DNA of 64,000 bases from Bremerella volcania (lineage in GTDB: Bacteria > Planctomycetota > Planctomycetia > Pirellulales > Pirellulaceae): positions 3,286,001 to 3,350,000 of the forward strand of contig NZ_CP036289.1 in the NCBI RefSeq assembly GCF_007748115.1, written 5' to 3'. Below, piece after piece: positions 28,066 to 29,555 of the stretch; position 1 is the first letter of the stretch, and each line of letters opens with the position of its first letter. Under the pieces are notes generated by a model, which saw nothing but the letters and a program-made list of their open reading frames with translations, was not told the origin of the DNA and did no database searches. A program made the position numbers and the translations under genes.

Positions 28066-28407
28066 TTTTCGTGTCTCCGTTATCAGGACAGGGGGCGAAG
28101 AGCGTGATGTGGCAGGACTGTCTATTTTGTCACAATGGGAGTGCGAAACTAATGAGTTGCCACGTTTCGTTTTTGAGTTTCGTTACAAGCCATCGCCAGA
28201 TTGGCAAATCGGGATTCCTCGCGAAGTCATTGCCCTCCTTAACAACCAACTGGCCGTGGCGTGCAATTCAATTGCGGTTTTATCATTGCATATAGAGGCT
28301 TTTTTTTGGCAGGATGCGAACCTATTCGCGGCACGTTCGTCTTAACCTTTGAACATACGACTGACCTGTTGGAAATGCTCCAACGACAAAGGAAGGAATT
28401 GATTCTC
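28066..28407. other. Intergenic leader region before the tRNA operon
   Basis: This 342-base stretch separates the GH2 start from the leader reading frame. No protein gene is convincing here. A run of eight T (about 28300-28307) follows an AT-rich segment with TATAGA at 28291-28296, but no well-spaced sigma-70 or sigma-54 promoter could be recognised. The promoter of the tRNA operon must lie here or within the previous gene. Confidence 0.4.
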
Positions 28408-28509
28408 ATGTCGCGTCGCAATTTAAGTCTGTTTTTGGGTTCATTGGGGGAACCTCTGCGCCGCGAATCGCGATTTCTATCCCTATCGCGAGAATCGAGT
28501 TTGCGTTGA
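28408..28509 (+). CDS. Putative 33-residue leader peptide of the tRNA array
   Basis: A short frame preceded by GGAAGGA with about ten bases of spacing. The peptide has 8 Ser, 8 Leu, 3 Glu, 2 Phe and 7 Arg among 33 residues. The first four are the amino acids served by the seven tRNA genes that follow. By ordinary wobble those tRNAs read 18 of the 33 codons: TTT twice, GAA three times, TCA/TCG five times, AGT twice, TTA/TTG four times and CTG twice. CTA, TCC and the Arg codons are not covered. The stop codon lies inside the left arm of an antiterminator. An in-frame upstream ATG at 28375 is possible. Expression is not proven. Confidence 0.55.
   Translation: MSRRNLSLFLGSLGEPLRRESRFLSLSRESSLR
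28468..28491 (+). promoter_or_regulatory. Possible pause hairpin within the leader frame
   Basis: TCGCGAT at 28468-28474 pairs with ATCGCGA at 28485-28491 over a ten-base loop. It lies inside the second half of the leader peptide frame, the place where classical attenuators have a polymerase pause hairpin. It depends on a repeated TCGCGA sequence and could be incidental. Confidence 0.35.
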
Positions 28510-28554
28510 CTACACGTCTGAAGATCGAAATGACCTTCGGCCCGGAGTCAACGC
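28503..28554 (+). promoter_or_regulatory. Antiterminator structure upstream of the tRNA array
   Basis: GCGTTGACT at 28503-28511 is exactly complementary to AGTCAACGC at 28546-28554, and outer T-G and T-A pairs could extend the stem to 11. A nested 6-bp hairpin (28518-28523 with 28535-28540) would close the intervening loop. The right arm shares 28546-28549 with the left arm of the terminator and takes up its loop, so the two structures exclude each other. A ribosome finishing the leader peptide at 28509 would cover the left arm and favour termination; one stalled earlier would leave it free. Confidence 0.6.
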
Positions 28555-28571
28555 GACTTCGGGCTTTTTTT
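28540..28571 (+). terminator. Intrinsic terminator directly before the tRNA array (attenuator)
   Basis: A 10-bp GC-rich stem (28540-28549 with 28555-28564, one G-T pair), a five-base loop and seven T residues form a textbook intrinsic terminator. It stands only 20 bases before the first tRNA and 30 bases after the leader stop codon, leaving no room for a separate promoter between it and the tRNAs. Confidence 0.88.
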
Positions 28572-28591
28572 GTGACGCAAACAAAGCATCT

Positions 28592-28663
28592 GGACTGGTA
28601 GCTGAGACGGTATAGCGGCGGTTTGAAGAACCGCATACGAGGATTCGAGCGCCTCCCAGTCCG
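28592..28663 (+). tRNA. tRNA-Phe (anticodon GAA)
   Basis: A cloverleaf can be drawn by hand. The acceptor GGACTGG pairs fully with CCAGTCC. The D-arm is GCTG/TAGC with GG in the loop. The anticodon stem GCGGT/ACCGC is perfect around loop TTGAAGA, giving anticodon GAA. The T-loop is TTCGAGC on a stem with one mismatch. Length is 72 with a four-base variable loop. The discriminator is G rather than the usual A for Phe. CCA is not encoded. Confidence 0.85.
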
Positions 28664-28668
28664 CTTCT

Positions 28669-28693
28669 GCGCGATGCCCTGACAGCATCGCGC
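28669..28693 (+). other. Perfect hairpin between tRNA-Phe and tRNA-Glu
   Basis: GCGCGATGC at 28669-28677 pairs perfectly with GCATCGCGC at 28685-28693 around a seven-base loop CCTGACA. No T-run follows. It is in the only wide spacer (42 bases) of the array and may be an RNA-processing or pausing signal. Confidence 0.5.
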
Positions 28694-28705
28694 CGCCAAC
28701 ATTTC

Positions 28706-28778
28706 GGCCCGTTCGACTTCGGGTGAGGTCACCGGTCTTTCACGCCGGGCAGGTAGGGTTCGACTCCCACACGGGCTG
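28706..28778 (+). tRNA. tRNA-Glu (anticodon TTC)
   Basis: The acceptor GGCCCGT pairs with ACGGGCT (one G-T). The D-arm is GACT/GGTC. The anticodon stem CCGGT/GCCGG encloses CTTTCAC, anticodon TTC. The T-loop is TTCGACT. The T-stem TAGGG/CCCAC has only three good pairs, which is weak. The discriminator is G, as expected for Glu. Length 73; CCA is not encoded. Confidence 0.82.
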
Positions 28779-28785
28779 CTATTTC

Positions 28786-28869
28786 GGAAGTCATCCGGCT
28801 GGATGAGGAAACTGTCTTGAAAACAGCTGACGGCATGTCCGTTTGTGGGTTCGAGTCCCACGGCTTCCG
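28786..28869 (+). tRNA. tRNA-Ser (anticodon TGA)
   Basis: An 84-base class II tRNA. The acceptor GGAAGTC pairs with GGCTTCC (one G-T). The anticodon loop CTTGAAA gives TGA; its stem has four pairs and one mismatch at the base. A long variable arm with ACGG/CCGT stem is present. The T-arm GTGGG-TTCGAGT-CCCAC is perfect. Discriminator G fits Ser. It begins eight bases after tRNA-Glu. Confidence 0.85.
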
Positions 28870-28880
28870 CCTTGATGGAT

Positions 28881-28954
28881 GGCTCGGTAGGCAACTGGCA
28901 GACCACCTTCGCTCAGAACGAGGGATGCTGTGGGTTCGAATCCCACTCGAGCCA
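28881..28954 (+). tRNA. tRNA-Leu (anticodon CAG) with collapsed variable arm
   Basis: The acceptor GGCTCGG pairs with TCGAGCC (one G-T). The anticodon stem CTTCG/CGAGG (one G-T) holds loop CTCAGAA, anticodon CAG. The T-arm GTGGG-TTCGAAT-CCCAC is perfect and the discriminator is A, as in Leu. The D-region AACTGGCAGAC is the Leu motif, but the D-stem is short. Only six bases (GATGCT) lie between the anticodon and T stems, where a Leu tRNA should have a long arm. Length 74. Confidence 0.78.
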
Positions 28955-28963
28955 CTGCTGAAC

Positions 28964-29037
28964 GGCCCTGTGGCAATTGGTTGACCGCTCGAACTTAAAA
29001 TTCGGGGACGTTGCGGGTTCGAATCCCGCCTGGGCCA
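28964..29037 (+). tRNA. tRNA-Leu (anticodon TAA) with collapsed variable arm
   Basis: The acceptor GGCCCTG pairs with CTGGGCC with one T-T mismatch. The anticodon stem TCGAA/TTCGG encloses CTTAAAA, anticodon TAA. The T-arm GCGGG-TTCGAAT-CCCGC is perfect and the discriminator is A. The D-region AATTGGTTGACC is Leu-like. The variable region is seven bases (GGACGTT), which looks like a Leu variable arm with its stem-loop removed. Length 74. Confidence 0.78.
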
Positions 29038-29059
29038 CTGCACGCCAGCGCGTGTCAAT

Positions 29060-29135
29060 GATCAGGTACGCAAATTGGAAAAGCGGCCACGGTGAGAACG
29101 TGGTGAATTTGTGGGTTCGACTCCCACCTTGATCA
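29060..29135 (+). tRNA. tRNA-Leu (anticodon GAG) with collapsed variable arm
   Basis: The acceptor GATCAGG pairs with CTTGATC (one G-T). The D-stem is CGC/GCG around AAATTGGAAAA. The anticodon stem CCACG/CGTGG is perfect around GTGAGAA, anticodon GAG. The T-arm GTGGG-TTCGACT-CCCAC is perfect and the discriminator is A. The variable region is seven bases (TGAATTT). Length 76. It is the third Leu tRNA in a row to lack the long arm. Confidence 0.78.
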
Positions 29136-29155
29136 CTCAAAACAACATTCAACGA

Positions 29156-29242
29156 GGAAGGTAGCCGAATACGGCTCGTCGGGCCGGTTTGCTAAACCGT
29201 GCGACCGCTATGGTCATGTGGGTTCGAATCCCATGCCTTCCG
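29156..29242 (+). tRNA. tRNA-Ser (anticodon GCT)
   Basis: An 87-base class II tRNA. The acceptor GGAAGGT pairs with GCCTTCC (one G-T). The anticodon loop TTGCTAA gives GCT. A long variable arm with GACC/GGTC stem is kept. The T-arm GTGGG-TTCGAAT-CCCAT has one G-T pair. Discriminator G fits Ser. It is the last complete tRNA of the array. Confidence 0.85.
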
Positions 29243-29555
29243 CTTCAATCGGATTCGCAATTACGATTTCTCGGGAGGTCTGTTGCCTCATTGCTGTCGC
29301 CAAGTCAACGGTTAGGCGGAGCAGAATCTGTCTAGACGGAAGATACCAAATCACAGCTGCAAATTTTACATGGGGAAGCTATGATTTAACCGCTCTTGCC
29401 TCACAGCAGGAGGCCAAGATGGGGGGATTTGCGGTTTTGCGAAGCCTTTTTGACGTTTTGCATTTGACCCGAATCCAAGTTTGACCGATTCTCGTTTATA
29501 ACGCCGTTGGGAAATATTTCGCGAGTTCTAGGGACAGAGGAAGTCGTGATGTTTA
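29243..29555. other. Region after the tRNA array, with a possible tRNA remnant and weak terminator
   Basis: No convincing protein gene. At 29299-29317 a D-arm-like segment (GCC, loop with CGGTTA, GGC) is followed by no recognisable anticodon or T-arm, which suggests a decayed tRNA. At 29433-29451 a 5-bp hairpin with TGCG loop and five T could be a weak 3' terminator for the tRNA operon. Confidence 0.4.
29433..29451 (+). terminator. Weak candidate terminator of the tRNA operon
   Basis: GGTTT and AAGCC form a 5-bp stem (one G-T) around a four-base loop, followed by TTTTT. The stem is short, so efficiency is doubtful. Confidence 0.3.

Follow-up and report, generated by a model that had tools for sequence, protein, structure and literature searches.

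Ribosome-mediated attenuators control amino-acid operons (trp, his, leu, ilv, thr), and the classical attenuator leaders are each devoted to one to three amino acids. T-box riboswitches bind uncharged tRNA directly, and tRNA arrays were reportedly found in 2021 to be induced by translational stress. Among the long supernumerary tRNA arrays is the trn operon of Anabaena 7120, which passages of PMC10272220 present as a set of 26 tRNAs, silent and induced by translational stress, repressed at its promoter by the DNA-binding protein TrcR (rtcB is among the TrcR targets); the main text of that paper holds no words beginning with 'leader', 'attenuat' or 'terminator'. Degenerate tRNA gene clusters with an isoleucine TAT tRNA are known from several planctomycete genomes and are described, in the accessible passages of PMC4807772, as partly degraded, often horizontally acquired and perhaps dispensable. 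A mycobacterial tRNA array unit has been called a putative antidefense system (a passage of PMC12803027), and an upstream riboswitch with an attenuation mechanism has been speculated for a Bacillus tRNA operon (a passage of PMC4448311).

The window analysed here, a stretch of 64,000 nucleotides (G000:C1:3286001-3350000) from the one-contig 6.5-Mb genome of Bremerella volcania, very probably contains a ribosome-mediated transcription attenuator before a supernumerary tRNA operon (Table 1), which would be a known mechanism in a new use, well supported by sequence comparison. As in the amino-acid attenuators, a leader ORF carries codons cognate to what the operon supplies, its stop region lies in an antiterminator arm that a ribosome at the stop could cover, and a mutually exclusive terminator stands before the first gene. 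The differences are that (i) the product is a tRNA and not a biosynthetic enzyme, (ii) the leaders span from few to about 19 amino acids instead of one to three and (iii) no pairing that would protect or sequester the stop arm was identified upstream in the leader ORFs, so that an untranslated leader is expected to read through. T-box riboswitches similarly link tRNA charging to terminator choice, but neither a T-box consensus nor any other Rfam riboswitch was found in the window at gathering thresholds, where the scan lists tRNAs only, and here a coding frame is conserved. The operon resembles the Anabaena trn operon in having tandem tRNAs beside a full dispersed set; however, control lies there with the TrcR repressor and appears to lie here with a leader attenuator. 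Our arrays are probably the degenerate planctomycete clusters of PMC4807772, but no regulation is mentioned in the accessible passages of that paper, whereas the present arrays have conserved heads and leaders that follow their tRNA content. As the first-pass annotation of this DNA had stated, no tRNA operon under such control seems to have been described: we found no account of leader-peptide attenuation of tRNA genes in the accessible parts of the open-access literature, which leaves room for one in an unlisted or subscription paper. Attenuation was elucidated with amino-acid biosynthetic operons; in the present case the product would be tRNA, so that one molecule would be both sensor and product, in a directly closed loop.

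Table 1. Features of the putative attenuator and its tRNA operon (positions in the window).
Feature	Position	Strand	Remarks
Promoter-like CGAACC-N15-CGTCT	28317..28342	+	G000:C1:3314317-3314342; presumably an ECF-sigma -35/-10 pair, which it resembles
RBS-like AGGAAGGA	28390..28397	+	Read directly; 10 nt upstream of start codon
Leader ORF, 33 codons	28408..28509	+	ATG 28408-28410; TGA 28507-28509, within antiterminator arm; 33-aa product MSRRNLSLFLGSLGEPLRRESRFLSLSRESSLR
Hairpin within leader ORF	28468..28491	+	28468-28474 with 28485-28491; MFE fold; possible pause hairpin
Antiterminator 5' arm GCGTTGACT	28503..28511	+	Overlaps leader stop codon; pairing conserved
Antiterminator 3' arm AGTCAACGC	28546..28554	+	Common to terminator left arm and loop
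Intrinsic terminator, 10-bp stem + T7	28540..28571	+	Stem 28540-28549/28555-28564, one G-U; T7 28565-28571; precedes first tRNA gene
tRNA-Phe (GAA)	28592..28664	+	ARAGORN, Rfam
tRNA-Glu (TTC)	28706..28779	+	ARAGORN; absent from window Rfam list, 29.9 bits in genome scan
tRNA-Ser (TGA)	28786..28871	+	ARAGORN only; without Rfam match in window or genome scan
tRNA-Leu (CAG)	28881..28955	+	ARAGORN, Rfam
tRNA-Leu (TAA)	28964..29038	+	ARAGORN, Rfam
tRNA-Leu (GAG)	29060..29136	+	ARAGORN, Rfam
tRNA-Ser (GCT)	29156..29243	+	ARAGORN, Rfam

The first-pass annotation had recognized the parts of this head correctly. The 33-codon frame and its ribosome-binding site are read directly from the sequence (similar purine runs precede the ATG in same-genus heads), the 9-bp antiterminator, whose left arm includes the stop, is perfect, the 5' arm being the exact reverse complement of the 3' arm, the 10-bp terminator with T7 is mutually exclusive with it and contains one G-U, and ARAGORN agrees on seven tRNA genes from 28592, spanning 28592-29243. 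A hand count likewise gives 21 Ser, Leu, Glu and Phe among the 33 leader residues, and under simple wobble the operon's tRNAs would read 18 of its 33 codons. The leader folds better than shuffles (z -3.1). The region scan for sigma-70 promoters found none. Taken alone, the window provides modest evidence, and the strength of the case comes from comparison. A chance ORF followed by an ordinary terminator, the leader composition being that of the genome, would fit the window scan, in which terminator-like sites are not in excess of shuffles (2 found vs 2.5 expected), the equal count of 18 of 33 window-leader codons read by the seven tRNAs (array A) and by a second array of the same genome (array B), and the existence of eight low-scoring model matches with neither accepted leader nor tRNAs. 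We nevertheless find this explanation scarcely credible, as it is contradicted by the conservation of the frame, the covariation, the wrong-frame null and the within-genome swaps presented below.

We found the locus in related genomes by DNA search, and the homologous heads of G001, G002 and G004-G008 each have a 33-codon leader that ends at the corresponding place. By head we mean the ECF-like promoter, a leader of about 33 codons, its stop within the antiterminator arm, the competing terminator and the tRNA array that follows. A covariance model built from 13 heads matched, at E <= 0.001 and with some false matches included, 124 of the 396 sampled genomes of the order and 26 of the 294 sampled from the phylum. 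Model matches to individual loci numbered 120 + 44, of which 100 + 40 = 140 heads were kept; the other 24 were weaker and each overlapped a kept match on the other strand. Among the 140 heads, a leader followed by at least three tRNAs was present in 85 distinct genomes, nine of which belong to a family (f21) of another order of the class, and 13 of the 16 loci fetched from that family combine a leader ORF with two or more tRNAs. The first-pass annotation had named in advance the state of the frame, the antiterminator and the terminator in homologues as the test of its reading, and all three are conserved across many genera and two orders. Seven low-scoring matches without tRNAs (L174, L175, L176, L180, L182, L191, L193) look like ordinary terminators caught by the model, which is why the two genome counts must include false matches; L183 also has neither leader nor tRNA. 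An exact pattern scan of an 84,980-species collection gave 25 stretches, 24 of which have an ATG leader ORF. Twenty are titled planctomycete MAGs and the other five are, by title, Thalassoglobus neptunius KOR42, one Kuenenia MAG, two 'bacterium' MAGs and one Candidatus Nealsonbacteria. These stretches add few independent cases because several are evidently genomes already in the head set (the T. neptunius leader, for example, is the L161 leader).

The leader is conserved as a coding frame, as judged from the heads at large. When the stop codon nearest to the model position was taken, regardless of any ORF, no stop interrupted the leader frame over 24 codons in 98 of the first 100 heads, against 41 and 57 for the other two frames, and in 33 of 33 heads of the second set, against 10 and 12 (seven of those 40 heads have no stop there); when stops were instead picked for having an ORF, the frame was open in 100 of 100. 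An ATG-started ORF of accepted length exists in 97 of the first 100 heads, the remaining three showing an in-frame GTG. The leader start was taken as the longest allowed ATG, and was set by hand in the window, L074, L098, L135, L156 and L187. Among 91 leaders tallied, 90 end with TGA and one with TAG, and the leader ORFs are more stably folded than permuted versions with the same codons (mean z -1.81, n=91).

The competing pairing is conserved as well. The terminator is paired in 97.5% of cells (100 heads), with changes on both sides in eight of its ten pairs. The alignment was guided by sequence and by the terminator, and the antiterminator did not enter into the fit. The ten-pair antiterminator is paired in 87.9% of cells vs 21-48% when slid, a comparison to be read with care since a structure taken from the same sequences tends to beat its slid versions. 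With shuffles that ignore relatedness, 0 of 500 reached either the number of antiterminator cells changed on both sides (21 vs 8.8 +/- 2.6) or the covariation score (0.191 vs 0.164 +/- 0.006), while the number of antiterminator pairs with changes on both sides was not above shuffles (3 vs 3.5). The duplex of each arm with its own terminator has a mean of -20.8 kcal/mol, vs -12.1 for shuffled arms and -18.1 for the terminators of other heads; it beats the mean foreign duplex in 79 of 99 heads, the arm sequence itself being conserved.

Masking the fold with a ribosome in 90 of the first 100 heads (a ribosome at the stop gives zero by construction) clarified what kind of switch this may be. In the finished leader at equilibrium the antiterminator was higher than the terminator in 10 of 90 heads without a ribosome and in 11-14 of 90 with a stalled one. 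We thus reject a purely thermodynamic switch: equilibrium folding favours the terminator, and the switch therefore has to be kinetic. Before the terminator right arm is made, the antiterminator is predicted at P>0.5 in 78, 70 and 67 of the 90 heads with the ribosome at codons 6, 12 and 18, respectively. Such a kinetic ordering, antiterminator before terminator right arm, is the logic of the classical attenuators. At the same stage but without a ribosome, P>0.5 is reached in 58 of 90 heads, and since the antiterminator would form early in that case too, an untranslated leader is predicted to read through.

This last prediction also suits a more general switch in which any block of leader translation (an antibiotic, failed initiation, a stalled ribosome) opens the operon and the codons are secondary, for failed initiation should then open it; the induction of the Anabaena tRNA operon by ribosome-targeting antibiotics, as described in passages of PMC10272220, points the same way. 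Such a switch can coexist with codon-specific attenuation. As the explanation of the locus, however, we consider it unlikely: it does not predict that the composition of a leader tracks its own tRNAs, which is what the comparison of leaders and arrays shows.

The decisive test of attenuation by the operon's own tRNAs is this match between leader and array. It was scored as the use of the own array's amino acids in the leader core beyond the pooled leader composition, the core excluding Met as well as the four C-terminal residues, whose codons overlap or adjoin the antiterminator arm. The leader-array table has 120 rows from the 140 heads. Of the 20 heads without a row, three have a GTG leader and in one the leader is split from its array; five have a leader after which ARAGORN detects no tRNA, eight lack both an accepted leader and tRNAs, two (L172, L188) have tRNAs without an accepted ATG ORF, and one (L189) has a leader-like ORF but no tRNA. 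In 50 sequence clusters, based on the 74 of 120 rows with at least 4.5 kb downstream and three tRNAs, the match was 0.080 vs -0.003 +/- 0.0098 for permuted arrays, a value reached in 0 of 20,000 permutations. When 80 loci (six same-genus loci with less room being added) were collapsed by genus into 54 representatives, it was 0.068 vs -0.005 +/- 0.008, again 0 of 20,000. For these representatives the wrong frames gave no signal (16,400 of 20,000 for +1, 6,164 for +2 and 16,421 for the reverse complement). Relatedness of the heads is partly controlled by the genus collapse and by permutation within family blocks, which yielded 0 of 20,000 overall, 0 for f1, 4 for the mixed block and 80 for f21; the f7 block of six representatives showed no match (4,728 of 20,000). 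Exchanging two arrays of one genome gave a lower match in 15 of 15 pairs; these come from six genera, seven of them from the window's own genus, and a pair was counted only if its arrays differ by at least three amino acids.

The individual amino acids and leaders behave accordingly in most cases. For 18 of 19 amino acids, the frequency in the leader is higher when the array includes the cognate tRNA; Lys is not enriched, and Arg is nearly flat (ratio 1.08), so the caution that the first-pass annotation had attached to the Arg enrichment of the window leader was fair, Arg being nearly uninformative across heads. On average, 16.6 different amino acids occur in the leaders of the 16 nearly complete arrays vs 14.8 expected, with higher values in 14 of the 16, and by hand count the L077 leader uses about 19; the 19 small arrays show no such excess (13.8 vs 14.0). 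As picked examples, the L181 array (Phe, Pro, Val, Gln, Asn, His) has the leader MLSLFKRPFHFVVVVSRVGQPRHHDPNQPCGSPDELRL, L168 (Phe, Glu, Ile, Lys, Val, Asn, Ser, Gly, Gln) has MYPLSNVRFVGRNQEEQHFGKQIANELSGQILRI and L179 (Phe, Gln, Asp, Leu, Tyr, Arg, Cys, Ala) has MTFMQRQPECDLTSGNCLMQSLYLDFRW. Several heads (L152, L097, L113, L146) have a negative match excess. As a general rule, leader composition thus appears to follow the tRNAs of its own operon at the level of amino acids. The proposal that the operon senses its own tRNAs holds to this extent across the family; at the level of isoacceptors the match is a trend only (714 vs 698 +/- 10, reached in 129 of 2,000 permutations).

The same data bear on the possibility of a small functional peptide as the leader product, with the terminator as a separate constitutive insulator or a decayed element. 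A C-terminal PLRL in 35 of 120 leaders could look like a peptide motif, but the codons concerned are within or next to the antiterminator arm, and RNA pairing can account for them. Much of the remaining peptide differs between genera while its composition changes with the array, and the terminator and the competing helix are conserved together, all of which makes a functional peptide beside an independent terminator very improbable.

The genome of B. volcania contains two tRNA arrays: array A with the seven tRNAs of the window (Phe, Glu, Ser, Leu; leader MSRRNLSLFLGSLGEPLRRESRFLSLSRESSLR) and array B with 22 tRNAs (C1:726249-730102; L064; leader MLIKNHNDRNQNEAGKRLPGQAGSGYAAHPLRL). Array B and its leader are complementary to array A and its leader. 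Discrimination between the two comes from the array B leader, because 24 of its codons are read by B and six by A. The genome holds at least 70 Rfam tRNA matches (150 of 181 candidates scored). Array A is supernumerary because all seven of its anticodons are also present as genes outside both arrays. Compared with the nearest canonical tRNAs encoded by this genome, those of arrays A and B show 52-70% identity, so that their function is not assured. The order Phe-Glu-Ser-Leu-Leu-Leu-Ser recurs within the genus with some losses and insertions, and in other genera and families arrays of up to 39 tRNAs, many starting with Phe-Glu, stand behind the same type of head. The first-pass annotation was right about the Ser, Leu, Glu and Phe content of array and leader, but sequence comparison makes the window operon a short member of a widespread tRNA-array family rather than a special Ser/Leu/Glu/Phe operon.

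We therefore retain ribosome-mediated attenuation and propose that it would operate as follows. Transcription would begin slightly downstream of the promoter-like element (28317-28342), and a ribosome would translate the leader. With translation completed up to the TGA, the ribosome would cover 28503-28511, the terminator would form and transcription would stop before the tRNAs. When Ser, Leu, Phe or Glu tRNAs are missing, uncharged or cleaved, the ribosome would stall upstream, leaving the 5' arm free at the time its partner is made; the antiterminator would then form first and polymerase would read through into the seven tRNA genes. New tRNAs, if functional, would make the leader readable again and close the loop. 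Each leader, leaning to the amino acids of its own array, would be a sensor for that set, and the leaders of near-complete arrays would approach a pangram.

A broader proposal, which we advance tentatively, is that these pangram attenuators form an emergency circuit, widespread in planctomycetes, in which a leader written for the whole operon responds when any one of as many as about 19 tRNA kinds is lost. It would turn on a strongly diverged second tRNA set, replacing tRNAs destroyed by anticodon nucleases or toxins, and the leader would be rewritten to the remaining tRNAs when an array splits or shrinks. Attenuation would offer a testable account of what silences the long supernumerary arrays, which are frequently labelled cryptic or degenerate, and of the conditions under which they are put to use. 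The leader sequence would be a readout of which tRNAs an array supplies, and natural multi-amino-acid leaders might be possible sensors of tRNA loss.

A looser form of the promoter motif lies upstream of 77 of 100 heads vs 1.35 in shuffles. We rejected a wider promoter regulon: in the genome as a whole the exact pattern shows no enrichment (21 matches vs 22 for a reversed control), and the contexts of 20 of the 21 matches, viewed by eye, included none that was convincing besides the two array promoters.

Several arrays contain an embedded protein (L064:4964-5764), for which neither Pfam, PHROGs, NCBIfam nor PDB gave a sequence match and whose AlphaFold model is too poor for use (mean pLDDT 38.2). 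A match in the viral collection carries 25 detected tRNAs together with two resolvase-type recombinases, so the tRNA arrays may be mobile.

The tRNAs of the two arrays (the seven genes behind the leader, and the 22 of the second array of the same genome, at locus L064) share only 52-70% identity with their nearest canonical tRNAs in that genome; their anticodons are retained. In several array tRNAs (Leu CAG, GAG and TAG; His; Asp), the base directly 3' of the anticodon is A, whereas the canonical counterpart carries G, a change that could alter the modification of the array tRNAs or their recognition by a nuclease.

Upstream, the leader ORF itself contains a hairpin. In general, permuting the codons of leader ORFs gives sequences that fold less well than the originals (for the originals, mean z is -1.81 over 91 leaders), and this structure is possibly a polymerase pause site.

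Two proteins are encoded within the second array. The 266-aa protein, which has no match in Pfam, PHROGs, NCBIfam or PDB sequences, was matched in 18 of the loci searched; for 13 copies that were aligned, identity to the L064 protein ranges from 59 to 98%. The 170-aa protein is present in seven loci; its methyltransferase matches are weak and fall under Pfam's cut-off.

Coordinates of the features discussed
Feature	Location	Strand	Remark
Array tRNAs, first array	window 28592-29243		
Array tRNAs, second array	L064:2250-6103		
Hairpin	window 28468-28491		within leader ORF
170-aa protein	L064:3977-4489	+	within second tRNA array
266-aa protein	L064:4964-5764	+	within second tRNA array
Leader/array split	G001:C1:6297303-6323717		L061, L062

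In G001, a related genome, approximately 26 kb separate the array from the leader and the start of tRNA-Phe, and about 50 bases of the tRNA-Phe region are matched at both sides of this gap. The pattern resembles what insertion of an element into tRNA-Phe would leave, with the operon severed from its leader. Inspection by eye of the few ORFs that adjoin the array recognised no integrase.

A contig from a viral collection (L263) also carries a head (the control region in front of a tRNA array) with a leader and 25 detected tRNAs; two resolvase-type recombinases lie near them. At five further loci (L117, L122, L123, L125 and L126) the leader ORF is present and ARAGORN detected no downstream tRNA; these are possibly arrays in decay. 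Small proteins, similar to each other by eye, are found 3' of the L123 and L126 heads.
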